From Bacteriovorax sp. BSW11_IV (lineage in GTDB: Bacteria; Bdellovibrionota; Bacteriovoracia; Bacteriovoracales; Bacteriovoracaceae), in the NCBI RefSeq assembly GCF_000447755.1, contig NZ_AUNE01000054.1:1-33608 (forward strand): a stretch of 33,608 bases of DNA. Direction: 5' to 3'. Shown piece by piece: positions 26,374 to 30,816 of this stretch. Each line of letters begins with the position of its first letter. Position 1 is the first letter of the stretch. Position numbers and translations under genes: made by a program. The notes under the pieces were generated by a model that had not been told where the DNA came from, ran no database searches, and saw only the letters and a program-made list of their open reading frames with translations.

Positions 26374-27267
26374 ATGTTAGAAGAATACAAGAATATTTTT
26401 GCGAAGCATGTAGAACATTTACAAGATGAGATCACTAGTAAACTACGCGAACTAGATCCATCCATTAACCTTGTTGAAGATATTTGGCAGCGTGAAGACG
26501 CAGCGGGAAATGATGGCGGTGGCGGCAGAACGAGGGCCTTTACAGGCGATGTTATTGAAAATGCTGGGGTCAATATTTCTCTCGTGCATGGTAAGTCTAA
26601 TCCAGATTTCATCAAAAAGATTGGTGGAGATGGAGATGAATTTTGGGCCACTGGAATCTCATTGATTATTCATCCAAGAAACCCGCGCGTACCGACGGTT
26701 CATGCTAACTTTAGAATGATCCAGGCCGGTTCAAAATTTTGGTTTGGTGGTGGTGCCGATCTCACGCCTTTTTATCCTCACACTGAGGACTTTAAATATT
26801 TCCACAATATCTGGAAAAAGGCGGTTGAACCCTATGGTTATTATGAAGAGTGGAAAGAAAAGTGTGATCAATACTTTGTAAATAAACACAGAAATAATGA
26901 AATGCGTGGAGTGGGCGGAATCTTCTTTGATCAATTTAATACAGGTAATGTTAAAAATGATGTGGAGATGATTAAAGACATTTCTAATTATTTCATCGAA
27001 TCTTACTTTCCAATTGCGCAGAAAAGAAAAGATGAAGAGTTTACGGCCGAGGACGAAGACTTCCAATTGCACCGCAGAGGCCGTTATGTGGAGTTTAATC
27101 TCCTTCACGACAGAGGAACTCACTTTGGTCTTCAAACAAATGGAAGAACGGATAGTATCCTGATTTCTCTTCCTGCTCGTTGTAAATATACATATAAATA
27201 TGCTCCGGCAGAAAATGGCCCTCATTTTGAAATGTTAAAGTACTATTACCCACAAAAGTGGGCATAA
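26374..27267 (+). CDS. hemF: Aerobic coproporphyrinogen III oxidase
   Basis: This 297-residue cytosolic enzyme converts coproporphyrinogen III to protoporphyrinogen IX with O2, a late step of heme synthesis. Family blocks are clear from N to C: WQREDAAGNDGGGGRTRA (38-55), VHGKSNP-type start of the core, THAN/RVPTVHANFR around H110, FGGGADLTPFYP (124-134), and FDQFNTG, plus the C-terminal RYVEFNLLHDRGTHFGLQT motif. Length is normal (about 300). GAGGT precedes the ATG. It implies heme use under aerobic conditions. A hairpin terminator follows within five bases of the stop codon. Confidence 0.97.
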   Translation: MLEEYKNIFAKHVEHLQDEITSKLRELDPSINLVEDIWQREDAAGNDGGGGRTRAFTGDVIENAGVNISLVHGKSNPDFIKKIGGDGDEFWATGISLIIHPRNPRVPTVHANFRMIQAGSKFWFGGGADLTPFYPHTEDFKYFHNIWKKAVEPYGYYEEWKEKCDQYFVNKHRNNEMRGVGGIFFDQFNTGNVKNDVEMIKDISNYFIESYFPIAQKRKDEEFTAEDEDFQLHRRGRYVEFNLLHDRGTHFGLQTNGRTDSILISLPARCKYTYKYAPAENGPHFEMLKYYYPQKWA

Positions 27268-27431: not shown

Positions 27432-29861
27432 ATGAAAGTATGGTCTAAAACAACGCTTATTTTTTTAATCTCATTGAATTCGATGGCCTTGCCACTTGGT
27501 AAAAATTGGCCAAAGCACTACCTTGGGATCAATCAAGATGGTGATCAGATTCGAAATTGCGCTGAGAATAATGACTCAATACATTTAGAGGTTCTAAAAA
27601 TAGTCTCGAACTTAGACATATCTTCATGTGATGTTATTTACAGTAATGATGAAGATTTCTGTAGATGTTTTAGAGAAAATACGGGAAGCGTTCGTCTCAC
27701 CAAATTACTTGAAACAGTTCATAAAGAAGGGCCTAGATTGGACGCTCTTTATCGTCAGATGCTTTATGGAAAATTAAATGAAGGTTCTAAAGATCAAATC
27801 AAAAGTCTTATGACTGATATGGCCATCGCTGATGCAAGAGCAACTAATGCTGGTCATGGTGAAAAGGCATGTTTTAGAAACTTTTTAAGTGAGGCCGCAA
27901 AAAATCAAGACTTCTACTATTCAAGAACTTTAATTGCATCTTTTTATGGAAAATTTAGAGAATCACCTATGCTTCAAGCTAAAAAAGATGAAGTGCTGGC
28001 CAATGAAAATATGTCAAAGGGTCAAATCAATGATTATTGTGAAGCACCTGTTAAGAAGATGATGGCCATGATGGAGCTCGCGAATAGTGGTAATTATAGT
28101 ATAAAAGATGTTTTTTCAATTGATGCAAAAAATAGGGAAAATGCAATTGGTGGTCTTCATAAGATGCAACAATTTCTTCCCGAAGAAATGAATGCCAGAA
28201 GTATGTTGAATACTTACTATTGCTTAAACTTCGAAAAAGCAAATAACGAAGAGTTAATTGCAAATAACGAAAAAAGACTTCAAAGCGGTAGACAAAGAGA
28301 GGCCTTTGCTAATGCAGTAAGAAGATTTGATGAATATGCTAAGGAAAAGGCGCAACTAGAGGCCGAAGTGAAAATGACTGAAGCTGAAATGAGTAAGCTT
28401 GCCAATGTTGTTATAACGGCAAATGCTCAAATTGATGAAATTGAAAATAGAATTGCGACAGAAAATTTATCAGATGAACAAAAAGAAGCATTACAAACTC
28501 AAATTACTGCATTGAAAAAAGAGGCCCAAGACGCAACTCTTACTCGAAAAGAGAAGGCCGACAGATTAGTGGCCCTAAGAAAAGATCTTGCTACGGCAGA
28601 TGTTCGTTTGACATCCTCTCAAAAAGCTAAAGATAGTTTCAAAGCAAGTAAAGAATACGAAAGTAGAATTAGAGCAGAGATCAATGCAGGTGTTTCTGGA
28701 GAGGCGTTATCTGCAAATAATGTCATCATTGTTGAATCGGGTGGAAGATTGGCCGCAGGAAATGAATTTTTCGCTGATAAAGATTCAATTAACGATGCTA
28801 GAGTTGAGGCCTATTCAAGTGGTGGGTCATTAAATAAGGGCGCAGTTGATGAAGTTGTTGCGGACAATAGTGTTTTTGCTCAAGAGGCCGCGCTTATGAA
28901 TTCTTCTAGCAACCAGACTATGGCGCCTAATCAAAATCTTTTTGCTTCGGCAATCCCTGTTGCCAATGATTTTGTGAATGCCAAAAAATCCCTGAAAAAT
29001 AATGGAATAGGTGATGATAGTGCCGCAGATATTATTAGAGAGGGTGTTGGAAAAATCAATGAAGCAGCAATTGCTCAGAAAAAGAAATTACAAGATGAAG
29101 AGCAATTAAAAGATGAGTCCCAAAGACAGGCCCAGTCTGATGCAAATTTCAAAAAGGCCATGGATATGTTTAATGAGTCAAATTCAAAAATTTCAGCACT
29201 TGAAAAGAAGCTTGCTGATTTAGAAAAAGAAAAAAATGAACTTGAGAAAAAGTCAAAGGCCCCTGTGACATCATCAACAGCAGCATCTTCTTCAAATTCT
29301 CAATTTAAATTCCCTAGCTCTTCTAAGAATGATCGTACGGTATCATCTTCAAAGAGCAATGAAGGAAACTCAAGATCTGTTGCAAGTATAGGTGATTCAC
29401 GTCTGGCACAGGCCGGTACAAATAATGTGAGCGCACCAAGTTCTGCACTAGGTTCAACCTCAGCTTCAATCTCTGCAGCGAAGAGTTCAGGAGCTTCTGG
29501 TTCTTCGGTCGGGTCAAGTGCATTCTCACTTACTGAGGTTAAAAATGCTGATGTAAAAGCACTTCCTAAATCTCTTGTCATGGCAGTGGATAAGGCCTTT
29601 ATGTCACTTTCTCCGTCTGAACAACAGGCGTATCTTGATGAACTAGTTGCTGGCAATGAATTTATTTATGTTAAATTTCCAGATGGTAAAGTTGTAAAAG
29701 TTGAAGGAAAGGGTGACGAGAAAAAAGCTTCTCAAAATAGTCGTTCAATCGCAACGATTGATAAAGAAAAAGCAAATATCCTTAGACAGATTGATCGAGC
29801 AAGACAAAGACACTCTGATCTCAAGGCGCTTATGAAAGATGTAAAAGTAGAAAATAAATAA
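27432..29861 (+). CDS. Large secreted coiled-coil protein of unknown function
   Basis: The 809-residue protein starts with a signal peptide (residues 1-20). The N-terminal domain (about 25-265) has cysteines at 43, 66, 77, 79, 147, 203 and 264, including a CxC pair, suggesting disulfides. Residues about 298-415 form a long coiled coil (EAEVKMTEAEMSKL and similar heptads), then a Gly/Ser/Asn-rich part, a second coiled coil at about 560-615, a Ser/Ala-rich low-complexity stretch at about 618-700, a compact region (about 705-765, ending in FIYVKFPDGKVVKVEG) and a third short coiled coil at the end. It is probably periplasmic or surface exposed and elongated. I recognise no family. It has its own promoter candidate and an excellent terminator, so it is likely a single-gene transcript. 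Confidence 0.88.
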   Translation: MKVWSKTTLIFLISLNSMALPLGKNWPKHYLGINQDGDQIRNCAENNDSIHLEVLKIVSNLDISSCDVIYSNDEDFCRCFRENTGSVRLTKLLETVHKEGPRLDALYRQMLYGKLNEGSKDQIKSLMTDMAIADARATNAGHGEKACFRNFLSEAAKNQDFYYSRTLIASFYGKFRESPMLQAKKDEVLANENMSKGQINDYCEAPVKKMMAMMELANSGNYSIKDVFSIDAKNRENAIGGLHKMQQFLPEEMNARSMLNTYYCLNFEKANNEELIANNEKRLQSGRQREAFANAVRRFDEYAKEKAQLEAEVKMTEAEMSKLANVVITANAQIDEIENRIATENLSDEQKEALQTQITALKKEAQDATLTRKEKADRLVALRKDLATADVRLTSSQKAKDSFKASKEYESRIRAEINAGVSGEALSANNVIIVESGGRLAAGNEFFADKDSINDARVEAYSSGGSLNKGAVDEVVADNSVFAQEAALMNSSSNQTMAPNQNLFASAIPVANDFVNAKKSLKNNGIGDDSAADIIREGVGKINEAAIAQKKKLQDEEQLKDESQRQAQSDANFKKAMDMFNESNSKISALEKKLADLEKEKNELEKKSKAPVTSSTAASSSNSQFKFPSSSKNDRTVSSSKSNEGNSRSVASIGDSRLAQAGTNNVSAPSSALGSTSASISAAKSSGASGSSVGSSAFSLTEVKNADVKALPKSLVMAVDKAFMSLSPSEQQAYLDELVAGNEFIYVKFPDGKVVKVEGKGDEKKASQNSRSIATIDKEKANILRQIDRARQRHSDLKALMKDVKVENK

Positions 29862-29897: not shown

Positions 29898-29928
29898 GAG
29901 ATTGCGAAAACTGATAAAATAGAGAAGT

Positions 29929-29948
29929 CTGTTTATTTTACTAAACAG
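29929..29948 (-). terminator. Weak hairpin downstream of the 54-residue gene
   Basis: CTGTTTA/TAAACAG, a perfect 7-base AT-rich inverted repeat with a 6-base loop, 27 bases beyond the stop of the small minus-strand gene. No clean T-run follows on the minus strand, so termination here is uncertain. Confidence 0.35.
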
Positions 29949-29975: not shown

Positions 29976-30140
29976 TTAGGACTTATTTTTGCTTTTTAGA
30001 TAAGTTGTTAGTGTGGAAATGAGTGTCTCGTCGCAATCCACTTCTATATTTAAATTCTTCAGAAGCCTTTTTTGTTCATCCATGATTCTTTCTAATTCCG
30101 AAAGTTCACTTAATAATTCAAGACAATTTCTTATAACCAT
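29976..30140 (-). CDS. Small 54-residue helical protein
   Basis: A short minus-strand frame from ATG (30138-30140) to TAA (29976-29978) encodes 54 residues, MVIRNCLELLSELSELER at the N-terminus, a charged middle (DEQKRLLKNL) and a Lys/Ser tail. It is probably a two-helix (helical hairpin) protein. Support for a real gene: GGAGGGG sits about 5 bases before the ATG, a TTGACA promoter lies upstream at correct spacing, and the heptad-like Leu spacing is protein-like. It looks superficially like Spo0E-family helical hairpins but lacks their SQELD motif, so no function is assigned. It lies between the suf terminator and the strong terminator of the convergent coiled-coil gene. Confidence 0.7.
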   Translation of the reverse strand: MVIRNCLELLSELSELERIMDEQKRLLKNLNIEVDCDETLISTLTTYLKSKNKS

Positions 30141-30187
30141 AACCCCTCCATGGTGAGTATCGGATAGTTTATTTGTCTTCTTTAATA

Positions 30188-30216
30188 AAAGTATGGCATA
30201 TCAAACAAATTGTCAA
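30188..30216 (-). promoter_or_regulatory. Promoter of the 54-residue gene
   Basis: On the minus strand a perfect TTGACA (30216-30211), a 17-base spacer and TACTTT (30193-30188). It begins only a few bases after the suf operon terminator, so the small gene is insulated from suf transcription and has its own start. Confidence 0.6.
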
Positions 30217-30252: not shown

Positions 30253-30816
30253 TTAAAATTCTGGAGCGATGTAGACATCTAGATTTGGGTTGTACTCATC
30301 TCGTAGGATGGCCTTGATGGCCTCTAGAGTACCAGTTGTTGAGCTTGGGCAGGTTCCACAAGCTCCTTTATAGCGAACAAGAAGAACATCGTCTTCGTAG
30401 CTAATAGTTTGGATATCTCCACCATCGGCCTGAAGACCTGGACGAATTGTTTTATCAAGTATTTCTTCAATGGCCAATAATTCTGGACTAAGGGCCGCTC
30501 TTCTTTCGGCCTCTGGATCTGGATCATAGTAGCCAGCGTCGTGTTCAGGCAGATAATTTTTAAGTGCCTGGTCAATTTTTGGCATCATCTCATCCCATGC
30601 TTCATAACCGAATTTAGAAAGAGTGATGGTATTTTCAAAAAAGTGAAGTTGATCAACTCCTCTGATTGTAAACATTTCAAGTGCGAGCTTGTTTTCTCCA
30701 CACTCCATCGGTGTTTTATACGTTGAGTTCCCTTCGTTTTTAACTGGTCTGTCTAGGATCAGTTTAATCGCGTTTGGGTTTGGTGTTGGTTGGACGTGAA
30801 ATGAAACTTCTTCCAT
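30253..30816 (-). CDS. Nfu-type Fe-S cluster carrier
   Basis: The 187-residue protein joins an Nfu N-terminal domain (about 1-90, starting FHVQPTPNPNAIKLIL) to a NifU C-terminal-like domain (about 112-187) whose GACGTCPSS motif holds the cluster ligands C153 and C156. Nfu proteins accept a 4Fe-4S cluster from the assembly scaffold and deliver it to target enzymes. As the last gene of the suf operon it would act on the SufBCD product. It resembles the eukaryotic/alphaproteobacterial NFU1 layout more than E. coli NfuA, whose N-domain is a degenerate A-type carrier. AAGAGG precedes the ATG. No sufE or sufU is seen in the visible part of the operon. Confidence 0.92.
   Translation of the reverse strand: MEEVSFHVQPTPNPNAIKLILDRPVKNEGNSTYKTPMECGENKLALEMFTIRGVDQLHFFENTITLSKFGYEAWDEMMPKIDQALKNYLPEHDAGYYDPDPEAERRAALSPELLAIEEILDKTIRPGLQADGGDIQTISYEDDVLLVRYKGACGTCPSSTTGTLEAIKAILRDEYNPNLDVYIAPEF

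Follow-up and report, generated by a model that had tools for sequence, protein, structure and literature searches.

A stretch of 33,608 nucleotides from Bacteriovorax sp. BSW11_IV (contig NZ_AUNE01000054.1, hereafter the window) carries on its minus strand, at 29976-30140, a frame of 54 codons plus stop that starts with ATG and is a genuine protein gene, conserved and under purifying selection. It encodes a two-helix protein, MVIRNCLELLSELSELERIMDEQKRLLKNLNIEVDCDETLISTLTTYLKSKNKS, as judged from the ORF call, a syntenic relative with 60% identity, the codon comparison and a fold model. Its promoter contains a palindromic operator, found also upstream of the gene in relatives, that is shared with genes of iron type. 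Computation shows directly that the coding frame is conserved, that the operator is shared and that iron-type genes bear it too; that the gene is controlled by iron, that DtxR is its regulator and acts by repression, and that the protein works as an adaptor are inferred. In the reading that we favor, with a probability of just under 0.6, the gene encodes an iron-starvation small protein, whose expression a DtxR homologue loaded with iron probably represses and which would act as a soluble helical adaptor.

The initial annotation had described a small, easily missed gene equipped with a promoter, a ribosome site and terminators of its own, and our results support this description and show the gene to be real. 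The 54-residue minus-strand frame was confirmed at the coordinates given above, and the ribosome site that had been claimed is present as a Shine-Dalgarno-like GGAGGGG at 30149-30143, 2 nt 5' of the ATG, with its GGAGG core 4 bases away from the start codon. The promoter is likewise present: the -35 is a perfect TTGACA (30216-30211) and exactly 17 bases separate it from a -10-like TACTTT (30193-30188), but the latter is weak, matching TATAAT at 3/6 positions, and the TTGACA/TACTTT pair does not appear in the list given by the promoter scan for the window. A TTGACA-17-TACACT arrangement, with equal spacing, is kept in G001, the sole same-genus relative in the genome set, as judged by eye. Terminators had been placed on both sides of the gene, and two distinct same-strand terminator-like hairpins were indeed found, one at the end of the upstream NifU-like gene (30249-30225, terminator scan) and the other at the end of the small gene's transcript (29891-29866, terminator scan and RNA fold); four terminator-like sites were detected, three of which represent one hairpin, vs 0.6 per shuffle.

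Conservation was the check proposed for this gene, loss or frameshift of the frame in relatives being taken as evidence against it; once run, it found the frame kept and dN/dS low. The window protein and its relative in G001, 53 residues long, share 60% identity over 53 residues, and both genes are syntenic, following the NifU-like gene; the synonymous sites of this pair are saturated (pS 0.93 vs pN 0.28). In the codon comparison dN/dS ranged from 0.02 to 0.22 in 13 of 18 overlapping pairs, namely those with usable dS, four pairs with saturated dS (that of the window included) and a near-identical one being set aside. A chance frame was rejected on the conservation and the low dN/dS. An Rfam search of the window gave 0 matches, and a known RNA was rejected as well.

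Within the promoter, and absent from the initial annotation, lies a palindromic operator at 30206-30191 of the minus strand. Its sequence in the window, GTTTGATATGCCATAC, matches 9/10 arm bases of GTTTG-N6-CAAAC; it occupies the promoter spacer and reaches into the -10, its last three bases being the first three of TACTTT, and its one departing base belongs to the -10. The general form of the operator is GTTTGAYATRYCAAAC, and the consensus over 49 sites reads GTTTG-A-[TC]-A-T-[AG]-[TC]-CAAAC. At least 9/10 arm bases were found upstream of 64 of the 67 profile-found members, which correspond to 51 + 16 profile matches selected for fetching; this selection omitted matches within long frames, a contig-edge match in G048 and some that were very weak. 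In the fetched set of 51 members, 49 sites reached at least 9/10 and the other two 8/10 (within 150 nt), a perfect operator being found for L144 when scored from the right start codon, while the 16 further, mostly weaker matches displayed the operator in 15 cases. The palindrome was first seen upstream of the first 24 members; among those not used to notice it, 41/43 have an operator of at least 9/10, and two loci found via the operator (L224 and L225) were excluded from the support count. Among 2550 shuffles preserving base composition only (mononucleotide), 8 reached 9/10 and none reached 10. One clear member, L263 of G122, has no operator within 150 nt upstream. The position of the operator in the promoter also varies, as in g15 relatives it lies beyond the -10, where it would overlap the start of transcription (judged by eye); a sequence that is kept while its position moves is what one would expect of a repressor site. 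The operator appears to be new.

A search for the strict operator, GTTTGRYNNRYCAAAC, detected 82 sites in 24 carrier genomes vs 8 for the reversed control, and 65 vs 6 in 31 further genomes; 65 operator sites, among the matches listed, were read for their neighbors. The window's own genome has 3 strict sites vs 1 in the control (G001, 3 vs 2), and with a one-mismatch pattern it displayed 21 forward and 30 reverse sites vs 14 and 13 in the control, a modest enrichment; given this weak signal, the case for a regulon leans on the relatives. Two of the three strict sites in the window's genome adjoin genes for a di-haem cytochrome c peroxidase (CCP_MauG) and for tonB (TonB_C), and the third adjoins that of an uncharacterised secreted protein. 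Pfam matches among the operator neighbors in relatives include CCP_MauG, TonB_C, Peripla_BP_2, ChaN, FeoA, FeoB, imelysin, HiPIP, PepSY_TM, Fer2_BFD and FumC, the operator preceding feoA/feoB, tonB, haem-uptake, imelysin, cytochrome c peroxidase, bacterioferritin-ferredoxin and fumC genes; the second genome set adds, by eye, three FeoA-like proteins, a TonB-dependent receptor and another BFD. Iron, haem or Fe-S families account for 14 of the 39 Pfam-scanned neighbors (15 with FumC) in a set partly picked as iron-looking and read without a random control, and many operator neighbors are uncharacterised.

The operator is strongly supported and the iron context in relatives is well supported. The shared operator, together with the genes that bear it, reads as the signature of an iron-starvation regulon, and the small protein is probably made when the cell is short of iron. 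Against this reading, G029, despite its 12 operators, gave no small gene in the profile search, and none of the 8 sites read there lies beside a family frame.

Several other genes sharing the operator deserve mention. Class II fumarase genes of the fumC type carry it in two genera (L121, assigned by Pfam, and L266, by eye), which suggests an iron-free enzyme swap under starvation. A secreted protein with a PD40/Kelch beta-propeller is found repeatedly with the operator (L080, L081, L096, L098, L110, L126 and L141; assigned by Pfam for L080 and L110 and by eye for the others), and in 4/7 of these loci its gene is divergent from that of an MFS-type transporter (MFS by Pfam for L096), making both products a candidate iron-acquisition pair. 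Moreover, secreted-looking proteins of ~165 residues with no Pfam match recur with the operator (L104, L105 and L133), L104 being in the window's genome, and three more (L093, L265 and L266) were recognised by eye.

The genomic surroundings of the small gene were read in 69 loci, with flanks of only ~1-1.5 kb and the names hemF, nifU and suf assigned by eye. In the window the upstream neighbor is the gene of a NifU-like protein (30253-30816, minus strand), which follows suf genes for Fe-S assembly in a suf-type run from 30253 onward, whereas on the other side a hemF-like gene is located at 26374-27267 with one large gene between. Neighbors of the suf/nifU type were found in 16/69 loci, belonging to the genera g1, g3 and g15, and a hemF-type gene lies beside the small gene in 8/69, in g15, g16, g35 and g38. 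Thus, at least in g1 and g15, the small gene is placed between genes of the two pathways that consume most iron, one for the assembly of Fe-S clusters and one for the synthesis of haem. The other loci have different neighbors, and no single conserved operon partner was seen across the 69 loci within those flanks. The nearest named relatives by the NifU-like protein are Bacteriovoracaceae, Halobacteriovorax and Bdellovibrionales assemblies; three named assemblies that encode a relative of this protein were compared (L003-L005), and in none of them does a family frame of at least 40 aa lie beside it, so the place of the gene is not fixed even among relatives. On the plus strand of the window, at 27432-29861 and convergent with the small gene, there is a frame for an 809-residue low-complexity, secreted-looking protein, which is similar in part to frames found in the short flanks of the gene in relatives from g1 and g15.

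The 69 family loci come, all but one, from the bacterial family of the window. Among 129 genomes of the order, the single-sequence search gave matches at E<=0.1 in 40, and profile A1, built from 21 of the first 24 members after omitting 3 near-duplicates, at E<=0.05 in 72, some of them weak and inside long unrelated frames; in good-quality genomes of the order the profile matched 42/73 at this same threshold. At the level of the phylum, 58 of 368 genomes have a match at E<=0.001, all but two within the window's family, and in one of these two outsiders, G226, the member is convincing and has an operator as well (L248). Scattered matches under the cut-offs were all that Pfam returned for the window protein, and other members had scattered matches with E of 0.0025-0.1; NCBIfam and the PDB gave nothing credible. 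With no credible Pfam, NCBIfam or PDB match for the family, a known family was rejected, and these tiny helical proteins appear to form a new family of a kind already known from MntS and the Fbp proteins.

The two-helix pattern proposed in the initial annotation was upheld by the AlphaFold2 single-sequence model, which has helices at residues 2-29 and 38-52 (mean pLDDT 83.9, pTM 0.48). Over the 69 members, in an alignment where one residue was dropped from each of six short ones, the first helix reads M-[IV]-[IV]-[RQH]-[NH]-[SC]-x-x-[LI]-L-x-x-[LI]-[ST]-x-[IL]-E-x-x-I, and its conserved face may be given as M-I-I-R-N-[SC]-x-x-L-L-x-x-L-S-x-I-E-x-x-I; L10 is found in 67/69 and E17 in 68/69 members. 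No position holds a conserved Cys or His among the 69, position 6 alternating between C and S and position 5 between N and H, and an Asp in the second helix is a majority residue only. The proteins are mostly acidic, with a median pI of 5.2 (range 4.3-9.5; window protein 5.0) and a median net charge of -2 over 51 members. Five short variants of 31-40 residues (L249, L250, L252, L255 and L259) have a perfect operator and keep the first helix, ending in a lysine-rich tail and lacking the second helix; both forms are present in G046 (short L252 and full-length L012), which makes them paralogues. As the short variants keep the first helix, the functional part of the protein is probably confined to the 20 residues at its N-terminus, for which a docking helix or adaptor would be the simplest reading. 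The earlier proposal of a small regulatory or adaptor protein may fit the helical model and the conservation along one face of the helix; such a face is equally compatible with self-association as with partner binding.

At the 3' end of the transcript a pyrimidine-rich block (...CTTCTCTATTTTATCAGTTTTCGCAATC, 29900-29929, minus strand) was noticed by alignment and predicted fold, and we treat it as a lead only. When the 3' ends of the window, L002, L006-L009 and L012 were aligned, a TCAGTTT core was found at this block in 7/7 full-length members of g1 and g15, the rest of the 3'UTR mostly differing between both groups; the block is unpaired in the predicted fold of the window and partly paired in that of L008. 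It may be an RNA element, possibly base-pairing, and the TCAGTTT stretch being short, chance or a terminator-linked role is also possible.

To identify a candidate regulator, Fur and DtxR domains were searched in the genomes of the order. The Fur-family domain PF01475 was found in 80/129 of them, and in 13/14 control genomes. By the same profile search it was not found in the carriers G000 (the window's genome), G020, G036, G049, G053 and G057, draft assemblies with a stated completeness of 92-100%; the 24 operator-scanned carriers comprise 19 with a Fur-family match and 5 without. Fur was consequently rejected as the regulator in the window's genome, where PF01475 was not found, and it seems that the probable iron regulon of this group can operate in its absence. 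The DtxR-type domain PF01325 was present in 120/129 genomes (119 over the cut-off), including all six carriers with no Fur-family match. The DtxR-type protein of the window's genome, G000:C9:3096, is 172 aa long and has PF01325 and PF02742, its nearest solved relatives being SSO2273, MntR, IdeR and DtxR. A perfect operator was found ~50 nt upstream of the DtxR-type gene of G127, a genome picked for this operator site and in which the profile search gave no convincing small gene. Allowing spacings of 5-8, an operator of at least 9/10 precedes 6/31 DtxR-type genes including that of G127 and only 5/30 without it, where ~0.8 would be expected (38 of 1550 shuffles, again mononucleotide); 5 of the 36 loci surveyed upstream yielded no gene. 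In G001 a 17-bp version of the operator is found at its DtxR gene. Taken together, a DtxR-type protein is the probable, and best, candidate for the regulator.

The mechanism that we favor can then be outlined from the sequence. With iron plentiful, the metal-loaded repressor, most likely G000:C9:3096, would occupy GTTTGATATGCCATAC, in the spacer that follows the -35 and overlapping the -10, and would thereby block transcription; as iron falls the repressor would leave and the 54-residue protein would be made, alongside proteins for the uptake of iron and haem and enzymes that save iron. The small protein would be an adaptor docking on a partner protein through the conserved face of its first helix, thereby retuning iron use or uptake with no need to bind iron itself. 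The same iron-starvation protein could instead have its operator read by another regulator, of the Rrf2 type (RirA/IscR-like) or Fur where present, which we consider a possible but clearly minor alternative: Rrf2 proteins were found in 26/26 genomes tested, in nine genomes (G001, G003, G042-G047 and G049) the coordinates place an Rrf2 gene ~5.4-9.1 kb away from the small gene, and most of the operator-scanned carriers have the Fur-family match described above. Nevertheless, the perfect operator just upstream of the G127 DtxR-type gene, in a comparison of upstream regions made for DtxR genes only, speaks for DtxR, and Fur was not found in six carriers despite their stated completeness.

As for the action of the protein, two known groups offer other models. 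In the parts of PMC7430163 that concern them, FbpA/FbpB/FbpC of Bacillus subtilis are small (FbpB 48 aa), Fur-regulated, made in response to iron starvation and linked to iron sparing; they would share with our family the size class and the kind of control, and a protein of this sort would help a small RNA to silence the mRNAs of iron-rich enzymes; the presence of the operator at fumC-type genes suggests iron sparing too. However, the Fbp proteins are there described as basic and suggested to be RNA chaperones under Fur, whereas our family is mostly acidic, as seen in its median pI and charge, six of its carriers gave no Fur-family match, and no Fbp-named match was found with Pfam for 21 members at E<=0.1 (a library that may contain no Fbp model). 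Even with some short variants having lysine-rich tails, which counter the objection from charge, we regard an Fbp-like role as unlikely. Inhibition of a metal exporter or other transporter, keeping the scarce metal inside, is the model provided by E. coli MntS, which according to the sections of PMC4361602 devoted to it is a 42-aa protein of the MntR regulon, repressed by MntR, made at metal scarcity and proposed to inhibit MntP with no metal-binding residues. Our candidate regulator counts MntR structures among its nearest solved relatives; on the other hand, the metal is manganese there and would be iron here, those sections describe MntS as hydrophobic and restricted to enteric bacteria whereas our family looks soluble, a general look at the operator neighbors recognised no exporter, and 21 members gave no MntS-named match with Pfam and NCBIfam at E<=0.1 (libraries that may contain no MntS model), so we find this role doubtful. 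Membership in the MntS or Fbp proteins is unsupported by the tests made.

A chaperone that binds or carries iron or haem directly would fit the iron regulon context, the E17 of 68/69 members and the majority Asp of the second helix. Direct metal binding is nonetheless unlikely, as there is no conserved Cys or His and that Asp is only a majority residue, and short variants do without the second helix; the direct iron binder was rejected on the lack of Cys and His, and a carrier role has in our view a very low probability. Lower still is that of a transcript acting mainly as a regulatory RNA with an incidental frame, a notion favored by the pyrimidine-rich block with its TCAGTTT core common to two genera; it is opposed by the dN/dS of 0.02-0.22, and some genera keep the frame although, by eye, their 3' ends lack such a block. 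A dual-function transcript combines both sides: the protein would be the adaptor of a Fur-independent, DtxR-run regulon, and in g1 and g15 the 3' element would pair with mRNAs of iron-rich enzymes. We consider this quite improbable; if true, one gene would yield a regulatory protein and an iron-sparing RNA. Within the part of PMC4361602 dealing with MntS, its transcript is also named as an RNA, RybA.

The lineage includes predatory bacteria, and iron from the prey is a plausible limit for its predatory members. From an easily missed 54-codon frame we have arrived at a protein family that can be defined and whose regulatory signature is strong, and also at a probable, seemingly Fur-independent iron regulon, with the palindrome as a direct handle on the regulator, its targets and the partner of the small protein. 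Neither the small gene nor the operator nor such a regulon was found in the open-access literature on the group, among the matches listed, and nothing there names both Halobacteriovorax and DtxR; a study of delta-proteobacterial metal regulons deals, in the portions relevant here, with metal-reducing species and mentions Bdellovibrio once (PMC545781).

Compared with known iron regulons, the target genes resemble those of Fur. The genes feoAB, tonB, bfd and fumC are typical Fur targets; the difference lies in the six carriers with no Fur-family match, most other carriers having one. The candidate regulator, with its PF01325 and PF02742 domains, is similar to those of the DtxR/IdeR/MntR regulons, but the operator GTTTGAYATRYCAAAC departs from the classical DtxR box, TTAGGTTAGCCTAACCTAA, and DtxR is here a candidate regulator. 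A second DtxR-like protein was also detected in G001 (L216, contig C4), with a different palindrome, TTAGGCATACCTAA, upstream of its gene; as this palindrome differs, L216 is probably a separate regulator.
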